From an uncultured Dehalococcoidia bacterium (GTDB taxonomy: Bacteria; Chloroflexota; Dehalococcoidia; Lucifugimonadales; Lucifugimonadaceae), in assembly GCA_958295935.1 (NCBI GenBank), contig OY282385.1, forward strand, positions 2,397,545 to 2,461,544: a stretch of 64,000 nucleotides of DNA, read 5' to 3'. Of the stretch, positions 33,897 to 39,055 are shown one piece after another (positions within the stretch are counted from its first letter, which is position 1; each line of letters starts with the position of its first letter). The position numbers and the translations under genes are program-made. The notes beneath the pieces were generated by a model, which made no database searches, was not told the DNA's origin, and saw only the letters and a list, made by a program, of their open reading frames with translations.

Positions 33897-34919
33897 ATGC
33901 CCCCCACGTCCATCGCATACGTCTCGCTCTCGGGCGACGATAAGATCGCAGCCCTCGCCCTGGACCTCCAGACAGGCCGCCTCGAACGCCTCTGGGATAC
34001 ACGCGTGGAGGGAGGCCCGGCTCCACTGGCCCTCTCGCCCGATGGCCGCACCCTATACGCCGGTCTCAGGCGCTCCTGCCAGATGGCCGCCTTCAGGGTG
34101 GACCCGCGGAGCGGCCGCCTCAGCTTCCTGAACACCATAGACCTCCACTCCGATCCATGCTGCATCGCCGCCGATCGCACGGGACGCTTCTTGCTGTCCG
34201 CATACTACGCGGCAGGCGGGATCGCCGTGCACCCCATCAATGAGCGCGGGTCACCTGTAGAGCAGCCGGCGGCGATGCGAAAAACCATGCCCAAAGCTCA
34301 TTGCGTACGCACAGACCCCTCTAACCGATTCCTCTTCCTGCCACACGTCGGAGAATCCAACGCAATCTTCCAGTTCCTGTTCGACCCAGCCTCGGGCCAA
34401 CTCCACGACAACAATCCTCCGATCCTGCGGGCTGCGGAGGGACACGGTCCGCGCCACTATTGCTACCTACCCAAGGGAAACATCGTCTACTTCGACAACG
34501 AGCAGGGGTCGAGCGTCACCGCCTACCGACTTGACCCAAACGCCGGAACCCTCACACCTTTTCAGACTATCTCCACACTGCCTAGGGGATACCGGGGGGA
34601 TAACTCCTGCGCCCAGATATGGCTGCATCCTTCCGCCCGCAGCCTGTACGTCTCGAACCGGGGGCACGACAGTATCGCCATCTTTGCAGTGCACCCCGAA
34701 ACTGGCGAGCTAACCTTTCTTCGCGCACAGCCCACGCTTGAAACGCCCAGGGCGTTCGGCATCGACCCGTCCGGCGCCTACCTGCTCGCGGCCGGACTCG
34801 AAACGGGGGAGCTGGCCTCATACCGGATCGACCCGTCCTCCGGCCTGCTGCACCCCTTGGCCGTCCAGCGGGTCGGCGACACCCCCATGTGGGTACTGCT
34901 ACACCAATTCCGAAAATAA
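33897..34919 (+). CDS. Seven-bladed beta-propeller lactonase (6-phosphogluconolactonase-like, YbhE type)
   Basis: A 340-residue protein made of repeated blades with IAALALDLQTGRLERL, LALSPDGRTLYAG, FRVDPRSGRLSFL and YVSNRGHDSIAIFAVHPETGELTFL, the pattern of the Pgl/YbhE lactonase family. It has no signal peptide, so it is probably cytoplasmic. The family hydrolyses 6-phosphogluconolactone or other sugar lactones. Divergence from a polyol dehydrogenase and nearness to sugar-acid dehydratases fit a route from sugar to lactone to acid. Codon choice here is more C-ending than in the ilv-leu genes, hinting at a different history. The start ATG at 33897 has no strong ribosome-binding site. Confidence 0.82.
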   Translation: MPPTSIAYVSLSGDDKIAALALDLQTGRLERLWDTRVEGGPAPLALSPDGRTLYAGLRRSCQMAAFRVDPRSGRLSFLNTIDLHSDPCCIAADRTGRFLLSAYYAAGGIAVHPINERGSPVEQPAAMRKTMPKAHCVRTDPSNRFLFLPHVGESNAIFQFLFDPASGQLHDNNPPILRAAEGHGPRHYCYLPKGNIVYFDNEQGSSVTAYRLDPNAGTLTPFQTISTLPRGYRGDNSCAQIWLHPSARSLYVSNRGHDSIAIFAVHPETGELTFLRAQPTLETPRAFGIDPSGAYLLAAGLETGELASYRIDPSSGLLHPLAVQRVGDTPMWVLLHQFRK

Positions 34920-35464
34920 GCGACCCTCCGCAACACTGCGAAGATTCCGCGTTTGTGTGTGCGTCGTTTGCTCATTTCGGTCAATGCGCACAGCGTTTTG
35001 ATAGTAGTAATAGTCGCGGTCAACCGTCGCGTCACCGAGAGCTCGACCTCGGCACTGTACTTCCGGAAGTCGTGGATGGCGCTCACTCGCTGACCGGAGC
35101 GCGGCATGGCGCTGTCGCGATGTTTGAGGACTTTGGGCGCATACATGCTTCATGACCTCCGGCATCAATCCTGAAGGGCGGCAATTGCTGGGGGTCTGCA
35201 CAGGGAGTTGGGAACCACGATGGGACCGTTATAGACTCTGGATCGTCGTTTACCTGGAGCCAAGGGGAATTTCTATATGACCTAGCCGAGCTGGAGAGGG
35301 CGGTTCGGATCAACGAGTAACATCAGAGACGCCTGACCCGGTCGCGGATCATGCGTCAAGTTAGCCCACTCCGCCCGGGCGTCTAACCTCTCGACATTGA
35401 TGATCTTTATGGTCAAGCCAAGGTTTGCCTTGCCTGCCGCAAGTAGCACGAGGATCGGAATCCA
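34920..35464. other. Intergenic region with gene debris
   Basis: A 545-base stretch without an intact gene. Its centre carries the GAF-domain fragment listed separately. Beyond it, 35172-35321 is open on the plus strand with a protein-like tail (WSQGEFLYDLAELERAVRINE, ending at a TAA) but no start codon. The rest looks non-coding. Confidence 0.5.
35020..35195 (+). pseudogene. Decayed GAF-domain fragment (sensor kinase or GAF-regulator type)
   Basis: Three short pieces in shifting frames join into one familiar GAF-domain segment: VNRRVTES (35020-35043), then LDLGTVLPEVVDGAHSLTGAR and HGAVAMFEDFGRIHA in another frame (35042-35148). After a further shift comes FMTSGINPEGRQLLG (35149-35193). Known GAF-containing kinases and LuxR-type regulators read this order continuously, with a central LTGARYG motif and a D-F-V-T-S-G motif. 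At least two frameshifts and the loss of both ends mean it is not functional. Confidence 0.7.
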
Positions 35465-37804
35465 ATGCGCATTGCTGATGCTATGCACGGAGTCGTAAGT
35501 TCCAACGGGATTGCATACGGCCCCCCTGCAACGGCTGTTGCCTGGGGAAGCGCCGGTTGCCCGATATTTCCTGCGTGTATCCGAGAGCACTTCAAATCGG
35601 TTGAAGTTCCTGCAAATCTGAGCAGGATGTTCGGGATGACCCTTACATACGCCCAACTCGATTCTGAAGTTCTTGAGCGATCCAACCTCGACAATCTTCC
35701 AACTCTGGGTCGCAACATCGTCCTCGACATTGTGCGGAAGCGGTTCACTCTCCTGTCGAATGAGATTCTTATACCCTCTGGCATTCCTCTAAGCTGGCTT
35801 CAAGCGTTGCCTCTCAGCCCTCGTGCCAGGAATGCAGTTCAAAGAGCATTCGGGGAGAGAGGGGAAGATGACCAATTGGGTTGGCCAATGTCAGTCTTGG
35901 AATTTCTTAGCATTCCTAACGTGGGGATCACAACGTCCATAGAGATACTCTGCGTAGTAGAGAGCGCTGAGCTTGGGCAGCTTGGCGACGTGGATTGGGA
36001 CCAAGTAGACGGTGGAGAATCCGGGTTCAATCGCATTGCCTTTGAATGGGCGGTCGAGCGAGCCTTTCAGCGACGTTTGAAGGCGTTTTCTCCCCTTATC
36101 GAACCGGTACAACTTTTTTCGGAGTGGGCTCAGTCAGAAACCAATGCAGAGACTTTGGGTGAAGCGATCAGGACAGCGGCTTCGCGCCATGACTCGGTCC
36201 GCCGCTGGGAAATGGTTGCCGGACTGAGGCTGTCGAATTTATCGATACCTCAGCCACATCCTTACGCTCTCCTGGACTCATGGTCTGAGGAATTGGACGT
36301 CCGGGAAGCCACCATATTCAGGCATCGCATCTGTCGCTCCGAACGCACTACTTTGGAAGAGTTGGGCCGGATGTTTTCACTCACTAGAGAGCGAATACGA
36401 CAGATCGAGGGGCACGTGCGTAGAAAGCTGCGAAGTTTCCTTGCCGGGCCGGACGCCGAGCCAATTCATTGGCGGGTTGGTTCTCTCCGGAACGTGATCA
36501 GGGTGGCTGCTCCCCGTCGTGTTGCAGAGAAGCTTCTCGAGGCGCCCGTGGGCAGCGGAGATTATCGAAGTATCCTATTGGACGTTGCCGGTCCATATGC
36601 TTTAGAAGGCGACTGGCTGATACATCAAGCATCGCGGGACAACGACCCTACCGATAGCATACGACTGGGAGCTGATGAATTTGGCCGTATCGACCCAGAG
36701 GCAGCGACTTCAGCGTTGTCGTCGTGGGGCCTCGACACTTCCTTTCACCGCGAATGGCTGACCCGTGACTCTTCAATCCGTGAATTCAATGGAGGACTGG
36801 TATGCTGGAGCGCCTCCTTGGGCGGTCGTTTAGCGTTTGCTCTTGCTGATCTTGGCCGGCCTGCTACGATCTACGAGTTGATGAATTACCTGCAAGAGGA
36901 CAGTAGCCTTGCTTACGTACGCAACACCCTGACTTCGGATGAGCGTGTAGTCAGAGTGGACAAAGTTCGCTATGGCCTTAGGTCGTGGGGACTCGACGAG
37001 TATGAGGGTATTGTGCACTCGATTCGCGAATTGATCGATGAGGCCAAGGGCCCTCTGCCCATCGATGACGTAGTGGATCGAATAACGCAAAACTTTGGCG
37101 TGGCGGAGACCTCTGTTCGGCAGTACGCTCATGCCCCTATTTTCGTAGTGGATGGCGATGTTGTTCGCCTGCGAACGGAGGACGAACCGTTTCAGTATCC
37201 GCGTAGTTCGGTCAGGCGGGCTCCGGGGGTTTTCGCATTAGGTCCTGGACGCGTGGCGCTGATAAGGAAGGTTGACGCTGACTTGCTGAGAGGGAGCGGC
37301 CATATCCTCGCTTATGCGGCCGGCGACATCCTGGGAGTGGAAGTGAACAGCAGGGTGACACTGAAGAACGTCGAGGGAGACATCGCGGCCTTAACGTACC
37401 CTGAGTCCTCTATTGTTGGCCCTTCAATCGGCTCTATCCGCGCACTCGCGGAACGGCTATCGGCAAAGATAGGCGACTATATGACGTTAGTCATGGATCG
37501 ATCTGATCTGTCGGTCTCGGCTCAGGTGACGCGGCCGGACGTTAGCGCTCCAAGTTGGGATCTCGTGTCCCGACTAACGGGGATTGAAGCTCAAAGTGGT
37601 ATGGCCGGCCTTGCAAAAGCCCTGCAATGCACCCCGACAGAAGTTCGCTCGATTCTGGGGTCAAGGGGAGACGAAGTCGTTCTTGAAGCTCTCCCTCGTG
37701 TGGAGTGCGAACTGCGGGAAGGCGGGCTGGCGGCTGATGGCGTGGTCACCCCGCAAGGGCGTCAGTGGGTAGGACGGCAGGAAGCCTCTTTACGCTCACG
37801 ATAG
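35465..37804 (+). CDS. Large multi-domain DNA-binding protein with a sigma-70 region 4-like helix-turn-helix
   Basis: A 779-residue protein not recognised as a named family. Residues near 65-95 (LDNLPTLGRNIVLDIVRKRF) and 142-165 (FLSIPNVGITTSIEILCVVE) look like helix-hairpin-helix or alpha-CTD-type elements. Residues 293-327 (ERTTLEELGRMFSLTRERIRQIEG, then VRRKLRSFL) match sigma-70 region 4.2. Residues about 458-515 (FALADLGRPATIYELMNYLQ, then VRVDKVRYGLRSWGLDEYEG) resemble a HARE-HTH winged helix, and a second such unit follows (PLPIDDVVDRITQNFGV). The C-terminal 200 residues are uncharacterised. No sigma region 2 is present, so it is unlikely to be a true sigma factor. It is a lone gene after decayed DNA; ATG 35465 is chosen, and a later ATG at 35627 is possible. 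Confidence 0.6.
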   Translation: MRIADAMHGVVSSNGIAYGPPATAVAWGSAGCPIFPACIREHFKSVEVPANLSRMFGMTLTYAQLDSEVLERSNLDNLPTLGRNIVLDIVRKRFTLLSNEILIPSGIPLSWLQALPLSPRARNAVQRAFGERGEDDQLGWPMSVLEFLSIPNVGITTSIEILCVVESAELGQLGDVDWDQVDGGESGFNRIAFEWAVERAFQRRLKAFSPLIEPVQLFSEWAQSETNAETLGEAIRTAASRHDSVRRWEMVAGLRLSNLSIPQPHPYALLDSWSEELDVREATIFRHRICRSERTTLEELGRMFSLTRERIRQIEGHVRRKLRSFLAGPDAEPIHWRVGSLRNVIRVAAPRRVAEKLLEAPVGSGDYRSILLDVAGPYALEGDWLIHQASRDNDPTDSIRLGADEFGRIDPEAATSALSSWGLDTSFHREWLTRDSSIREFNGGLVCWSASLGGRLAFALADLGRPATIYELMNYLQEDSSLAYVRNTLTSDERVVRVDKVRYGLRSWGLDEYEGIVHSIRELIDEAKGPLPIDDVVDRITQNFGVAETSVRQYAHAPIFVVDGDVVRLRTEDEPFQYPRSSVRRAPGVFALGPGRVALIRKVDADLLRGSGHILAYAAGDILGVEVNSRVTLKNVEGDIAALTYPESSIVGPSIGSIRALAERLSAKIGDYMTLVMDRSDLSVSAQVTRPDVSAPSWDLVSRLTGIEAQSGMAGLAKALQCTPTEVRSILGSRGDEVVLEALPRVECELREGGLAADGVVTPQGRQWVGRQEASLRSR

Positions 37805-37894: not shown

Positions 37895-39055
37895 TCAGTG
37901 CCAGTTTCGTTCGTCTTCGACGGTGCGTATGGGTCTTTTGGGGAATGGTTGGAATGGGTATTCGGCGAGTTTTTCTTCGTTGATTTCGACTCCGAGTCCG
38001 GGCCGCTTGGGGAGTTCTACGTATCCCTCGTGGTCGGGTTCGAGGTATCCGTTGCATACGTCTCTGGACATGGGTTCGACGCTGAGCGCGTATTCGTATA
38101 TGAGAAAGTTGGGCATGACGGCGGAGGCGTGTATGGCTGCTGCGCATCCTATTCCGGTGCTGTTCCATCCGTGCGGCGATACTGCGACGTACCAGGGTTG
38201 TGCCATGGCGGCGATTTGCGTCAGTTCGAGTATTCCGCCCGTGTTGCAGATGTCCGGGTTTATGATGTCTGCTGCTCGTTTTTCGAGTACTTCCCGGAAT
38301 CCGCTTCGGGTGTACAGGGCTTCTCCGGTGACGACGGGTATGGTGGTTGCCTTGCGCACTTCTGCTATGGCGTCGAGGTTGTCCGGGGGGCAGGGTTCTT
38401 CAAACCAGTATGGGTCGTACTCTTCCATCTTCTTTGCTGCTCGTATGGCGTTCATAGGTGAGAGGCGTCTGTGGACCTCGATCAACAGTTCTACTTCCGG
38501 CCCTACGGCTTCTCTGACGGCTCTTACGACTTTGGCGGCGTGTTCGAGGGCGTCTCTGTTGACGTACTCGGCCCATGGTCCTGGGAACGGGTCGAATTTG
38601 AGGGCGGTGAATCCTCGCTCGCGGACGACTTTATGTGCTTCCTGTCCGGCTTCTTCGGGTGACCCGCTTCCTCCCCATCCGTTGGCGTAGAGTCGAATGC
38701 GGGGTCGGCATGGGCCTCCGAGGAGGTCGTATATCGGGCGGTCGAGGGTTTTTCCAACGATGTCCCACAGTGCGATTTCTATTCCGCTGAGTGCGCAGTG
38801 TAGGTCCATGGCTGGCCGCTTGGTTGAGAAGTCTTCGTGTGCGACGTGTGTGAAGTGGCGTATGTGGAAGGGGTCTCGTCCTTCCAGGTATCTTGCGAGT
38901 TGGAGGACGTGTGCTTCGATCTGGGTGTCCCGGTCGGCCTGTGTGTATGCTTCTCCCCATCCGGTGATGCCCTGGTCTGTCTGTACCTTTACGAAGATGA
39001 AGTTCTTGCCCACGCCGGGGTTCATCTTGTGTACTGTGACGTCGGTGATTTTCAT
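37895..39055 (-). CDS. Enolase-superfamily sugar-acid dehydratase (galactonate dehydratase-like)
   Basis: A 386-residue member of the mandelate racemase group starting MKITDVTVHKMNPG. The capping domain carries the 20s loop, and the barrel has K153 (TALKFDPFPGPW), metal ligands E193 (LIEVHRRL, with H195), E220 (WFEEPCPPDN) and E245 (TGEALYTR), and the catalytic histidine H295 (VSPHGWNSTG). E-V-H-x-R-L-S-P and the SPHG motif favour D-galactonate/gluconate-type dehydratases, which make 2-keto-3-deoxy sugar acids. It is clearly paralogous to the enzyme at 12775 but distantly so. Its 3-prime end faces the 779-residue DNA-binding protein gene. Confidence 0.86.
   Translation of the reverse strand: MKITDVTVHKMNPGVGKNFIFVKVQTDQGITGWGEAYTQADRDTQIEAHVLQLARYLEGRDPFHIRHFTHVAHEDFSTKRPAMDLHCALSGIEIALWDIVGKTLDRPIYDLLGGPCRPRIRLYANGWGGSGSPEEAGQEAHKVVRERGFTALKFDPFPGPWAEYVNRDALEHAAKVVRAVREAVGPEVELLIEVHRRLSPMNAIRAAKKMEEYDPYWFEEPCPPDNLDAIAEVRKATTIPVVTGEALYTRSGFREVLEKRAADIINPDICNTGGILELTQIAAMAQPWYVAVSPHGWNSTGIGCAAAIHASAVMPNFLIYEYALSVEPMSRDVCNGYLEPDHEGYVELPKRPGLGVEINEEKLAEYPFQPFPKRPIRTVEDERNWH

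Follow-up and report, generated by a model that had tools for sequence, protein, structure and literature searches.

The window, by which we mean the whole 64,000-nucleotide stretch of DNA analysed here from an uncultured Dehalococcoidia bacterium, contains a gene on the forward strand (35465–37804), referred to below as P0001, which is open over 779 codons without a stop and has the sequence GAGGA visible 10 nt 5′ of its ATG. The reading frame is supported by a full-length relative (738 residues aligned, 42% identity), residues past 746 are not conserved, and the third-position G+C of 0.56 is lower than the 0.64–0.76 seen in the neighbouring genes. From reading the translations by eye, we take the flanking genes to encode a lactonase-like protein (33897–34919, +) and a mandelate-racemase-type enzyme (37895–39055, −). 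The features of the locus are as follows (all on the + strand):

35216–35446, +: sspD pseudogene remnant, comprising the final 76 codons and the stop, and interrupted by two in-frame TAA codons (match to the SspD of Chloroflexota locus L075)
35465–37804, +: P0001, an alpha-CTD/sigma 4/winged-helix/B3 protein of 779 aa (open reading frame, Pfam, relatives and structure model)
35789–35977, +: alpha-CTD-like helix-hairpin domain, residues 109–171 (profile–profile comparison with RpoA CTDs)
36260–36445, +: sigma-70 region 4, residues 266–327, with the motif TRERIRQIE intact (Pfam and VIA structure alignment)
36449–36625, +: putative winged-helix unit 1, residues 329–387 (order of secondary structure in the model)
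36626–36805, +: putative winged-helix unit 2, residues 388–447 (order of secondary structure in the model)
36818–36979, +: HARE/delta-like winged helix, residues 452–505 (alignment with RpoE delta and weak delta profile matches)
37010–37171, +: putative second HARE-like winged helix, residues 516–569 (position and topology in the model)
37229–37531, +: B3/EcoRII-N-like DNA-binding domain, residues 589–689 (domain model and structure alignments)
37553–37690, +: C-terminal helical tail, residues 697–742 (structure models)

The AlphaFold2 model of P0001, for which the input was P0001 plus 31 relatives, has a mean pLDDT of 81 and reaches about 90 or more across most of residues 260–745, with a low-confidence linker between the alpha-CTD-like domain and sigma region 4. 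The original prediction of a sigma-70 region 4 without region 2 was confirmed, as Pfam Sigma70_r4 matches residues 276–323 with an E-value of 8.6e-7 which exceeds the gathering cut-off, the modelled region aligns with solved sigma-A region 4 structures at Z-scores of up to 9.7 (VIA), and no region 2 (the part that binds core RNA polymerase and melts the −10 element, as against −35 and beta-flap binding by region 4) was found with Pfam or NCBIfam, where sigma matches were confined to residues of about 250–330. The only NCBIfam matches were to region 4 of MzaA and of RpoH/RpoD-type models. The hairpin-like elements noticed earlier correspond to the alpha-CTD-like domain, for which the family segment (P0001 included) aligned with 14 RpoA C-terminal domains at a probability of 97.4% and an E-value of 9.6e-12 using hhalign, and PF03118 matches one family member (6.8e-4).

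Where one or two HARE-like winged helices had been proposed, the model predicts four winged-helix units in tandem, of which the last two may be HARE/delta-like. Residues 439–509 of the model align with RpoE (delta) with a Z-score of 7.8, and RNA polymerase delta subunits top a PDB search with the family profile, if weakly (E 0.5–1.3). The HARE profile PF05066 matches four of eleven family members (best E 0.0038), and it reaches a P0001 paralogue in the same genome at an E-value of 0.57 (12.3 bits against a gathering threshold of 25.9) and leaves P0001 itself unmatched, so that P0001 differs from known delta and HARE-HTH proteins in this respect, as well as in its tandem units and far larger size.

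The B3-like C-terminal domain had not been recognised in the original prediction. Modelled alone (pLDDT 93.9, pTM 0.88), it aligns with LlaJI.R1-N (Z 6.5), EcoRII-N (Z 5.2), BfiI (Z 4.2) and also plant B3 domains, with every entry aligned above Z 2.6 having a B3/EcoRII-N-type fold at what are modest Z-scores (4.2–6.5). The domain thus has a pseudobarrel of the kind with which restriction enzymes read DNA, on a structural match of modest score; P0001 has no nuclease domain attached, and the sequence identity is about 10%. As no catalytic or enzyme domain was found in P0001, it most likely reads DNA.

P0001 as a whole falls outside the well-described families in the libraries searched, with no full-length model in Pfam, NCBIfam or PADLOC. 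The nearest is MzaA (NF041931, the MZA anti-phage sigma-70 protein), which like P0001 is sigma-70-derived, linked to a defence operon, and shares region 4 (E 2.5e-9). However, P0001 reaches 36.5 bits where the MzaA model requires 800, lacks region 2, and adds the alpha-CTD, four winged helices and B3 domain. A Pfam match to DUF4777 (3.6e-4) was under its cut-off with a best stretch of only 21 residues and was rejected, and matches to mannose-6-phosphate isomerase (E 0.56) were regarded as chance.

The decayed DNA which had been noted beside P0001 is the 3′ remnant of sspD with two stops, being 61% identical over 35216–35443 to residues 203–278 of the L075 SspD (E about 2e-23). It ends exactly at the SspD C-terminus and its stop lies 18 bp 5′ of P0001, and in L075 too sspD is directly 5′ of the P0001 relative. 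Because the remnant adjoins it, P0001 probably came to this site as part of a defence operon, and it is evidently the orphan survivor of an operon of the Ssp type. Apart from this remnant there are no other Ssp or Pbe genes in the window, SspB was not found in the genome of the organism, and no trace of what caused the operon to be lost was seen, with only short, imperfect repeats around P0001.

Relatives were identified by a pattern and tblastn scan of one genome per species across 84,980 species (139 relatives found and 80 kept), and in a survey of 395 Gemmatimonadota genomes in which 28 had family members. The species scan yielded the loci L075 and L077 discussed below, and the Gemmatimonadota survey added L210, L214, L221, L222 and L194. 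When P0001 by itself was used in an initial genome scan, no relative came up, nor did any in three scans of viral contigs. Among phage records, one match to region 4 only, in a 1.5-kb record, was ignored. In the Chloroflexota and Gemmatimonadota, the relatives usually follow sspD and precede pbeA, with no gene in between, in hybrid operons for phosphorothioation, where the matches to SspA–D, PbeA and PbeC are very high-scoring. Seven loci were found with SspD, PbeA/PbeC and a family member. Three have the order SspA–SspB–SspC–SspD–member–PbeA–PbeC (L210, L221 and L222), one at a contig edge has SspC–SspD–member–PbeA–PbeC (L214), one from the Gemmatimonadota has SspD–member–PbeA–PbeC–dnd_assoc_4–GIY-YIG–DndB (L077), and in the last two the order is rearranged (L194, and L061/L076 which are one locus in G207). 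The Chloroflexota locus L075 runs from SspA–D to the member and then reaches the contig end. The original prediction had considered a mobile or a defence function for P0001, among others. A mobile role suits only the plasmid-borne relatives from mycobacteria, whereas a defence function has good support from the neighbourhoods of homologues and from the adjacent sspD remnant, and P0001 belongs to a defence-linked family.

Among 15 Gemmatimonadota loci with SspD, a member is present in six of six with Pbe versus one of nine without (Fisher p 0.0014, where the test treats related loci as independent, several of them sharing up to about 84% identity in SspD). The sole Pbe-less locus with a member (L220, 8031–9143 in G539, SspABCD) encodes a 370-aa protein without the alpha-CTD and sigma 4 parts. 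A 768-aa protein in L230 with a region 4 match only was not counted as a member; counting it would give a p of about 0.006. No member was found in six Chloroflexota PbeA loci without SspBCD (L184–L189), two of which are at contig ends. In one SspBCD–PbeA–PbeC operon from the same class as the window genome, the last gene encodes a complete sigma-70 factor (L190, 4535–5917 in G319; best NCBIfam match MzaA, 3.2e-57) and there is no family member. The family is found in all but this one of the Ssp–Pbe hybrid loci seen in the two surveyed phyla.

The window genome has one P0001 paralogue (46% identical), which lies in an operon at about 2.046–2.057 Mb (L033 12699–17080 and L034 427–5381) with the order PDC-M33A–PDC-M33B–PDC-M33C–member–PbeA–PbeC–dnd_assoc_4-like. 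Matches are strong for PDC-M33A (E 1.6e-76), PbeA (1.9e-170) and PbeC (1.3e-56), PDC-M33C is a DUF6339–SspD-like fusion, and the operon is apparently an intact PDC-M33/Pbe hybrid. In a phylogenetic tree P0001, the paralogue and the L075 member group together with 100/100 support, with the L077 and L076 members joining at 97/95. We also note a TIR-type effector-like protein on the opposite strand upstream of the paralogue operon (PADLOC 9.1e-11; L033 11033–12016), and a short protein with a type I specificity domain and a Fic-like C-terminal domain just after it (L034 5570–6292).

The explanation which we favour, with moderate confidence, is that P0001 is an orphaned DNA-reading specificity or coupling subunit of hybrid Ssp–Pbe phosphorothioation restriction–modification systems. 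In intact operons, SspA–D place sulfur on the DNA backbone and restriction is carried out by PbeA, which combines an HKD nuclease with an SF2 helicase, together with the CxC ABC ATPase PbeC. The P0001-type protein would bind duplex DNA via sigma region 4 (predicted to read a −35-like sequence), the alpha-CTD-like domain, the B3 domain and the four winged-helix units, and might either direct PbeA/PbeC to their place of action or connect them with sites that Ssp has marked. It may in this way stand in for the DndE-type PbeD, and PbeD/DndE was not noticed in the Ssp–Pbe loci of the family. We infer a coupling role because members co-occur with Ssp and Pbe combined and not with either alone, and it is from the intact region 4 motif only that reading of a −35 sequence, or contact with RNA polymerase, is suggested. 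Counting against a coupler, there are members without Ssp or Pbe, those of mycobacteria lack an intact region 4 motif, and the scores of the HARE and B3 matches, both structural, are modest.

It is possible, if doubtful, that P0001 is instead a transcriptional regulator which has no contact with PbeA or PbeC but attaches to promoters by sigma 4, the alpha-CTD and B3, and there recruits RNA polymerase or keeps it away, so turning the defence operon (or promoters of phage) on or off. The three modules derived from RNA polymerase (alpha-CTD, sigma 4 and delta-like) are those of its accessory parts, and they suggest that P0001 may modulate RNA polymerase, as had been proposed at the outset. Chromosomal members beyond defence operons, and the complete sigma-70 factor in the L190 operon, also fit a regulator. 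Nonetheless, P0001 is much larger, and has more domains, than would be expected of a local regulator, and eight SspABCD-type loci without Pbe have no member, which would be unexpected for the regulator of a modification operon. We think it unlikely, though worth stating, that the transcription machinery guides this sulfur-based restriction, in which case a sigma/alpha mimic at promoters or on RNA polymerase would aim the Pbe helicase–nuclease at active unmodified phage promoters; this would explain the recurrence of sigma-type proteins, whether of this family or MzaA-like, in Ssp–Pbe operons.

Members are also found outside Ssp–Pbe operons. In the Streptosporangiaceae (L082–L154) they are chromosomal sigma 4/HARE members, part of a conserved set with a second family member, a UvrD-like helicase and cysS, where we take the helicase and cysS to be such from reading their translations; the UvrD-like helicase, second member and cysS are nearby in 63 of 80 loci. 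The Gemmatimonadota also have members of about 500 residues in a conserved chromosomal context, next to genes presumably encoding an aminotransferase, an MFS protein and a Rho-like protein. Mycobacterial plasmid members have varied gene neighbours and a degenerate region 4, and all seven full-length members without the [TS]RER[IV]RQ motif are mycobacterial (the motif is present in 69 of 76). The chromosomal relatives in the Streptosporangiaceae and Gemmatimonadota suggest that the family has other roles too. A member in L062 (1–9280 in G336) is beside genes we read as encoding a GHKL ATPase, Mrr-type helicase and C5 methyltransferase, possibly another restriction system. An 880-aa relative in L066 (8549–11191 in G137), which apparently combines sigma 4 and HARE-like units with a pair of alpha-CTD-like ones, has a different neighbourhood and shows that there is a wider superfamily.

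These chromosomal members raise the alternative that the family is a general factor associated with RNA polymerase or replication, chromosomal in the Actinobacteria and Gemmatimonadota and recruited by defence operons, and that P0001 now has a housekeeping job in the window. Although the recurring helicase, second member and cysS and the vertical-looking Gemmatimonadota members would fit, we consider this quite improbable as the sspD remnant indicates a defence-operon origin for the window copy and none of the 60 genus- and family-level relative genomes searched carries the P0001 gene (region 4 matches there were to sigma factors only, and four such loci examined encode housekeeping RpoD-type proteins).

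Finally, that P0001 has become a pseudogene and is at an early stage of decay, simply uninterrupted so far, is very improbable even though the adjoining sspD is truncated with two stops and the end after residue 746 is unconserved, since about 20 stops would be expected in 779 codons at the rate seen in the remnant and none is observed (with the lower 95% bound of that rate, P is still 0.026). Of the 114 positions at which three operon members are identical, P0001 retains 85, which is within the range of intact members. By its sequence P0001 does not appear to be decaying, and its intact state would be explained by continued service to the second (PDC-M33/Pbe) locus of this genome or by a decay that is only recent.

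Surveys of phosphorothioation and BREX systems cover the components of Ssp, of Pbe and of Type-4 BREX as well as an HTH in DndH that is related to sigma factors (PMC10853773, PMC12839542), and the passages of these two papers considered here have no description of a P0001-type protein. In the same way, the SspABCD and PbeABCD systems in whose operons the relatives of P0001 sit have no alpha-CTD/sigma 4/winged-helix/B3 component as described in PMC6459918 and PMC10853773. The DndH variant in the latter is another protein of phosphorothioation-based restriction with a sigma-type HTH, but there the HTH lies between REase and HerA–FtsK domains, neither of which is found in P0001. No description of such a protein was found in the part of the wider literature that was searched. 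There is as yet little explanation of how the modification module and the restriction module of phosphorothioate systems come to share their sites, and the P0001 family is a candidate for the reader or coupler that is missing from these systems. It would tie RNA-polymerase-type DNA recognition to DNA-sulfur defence.
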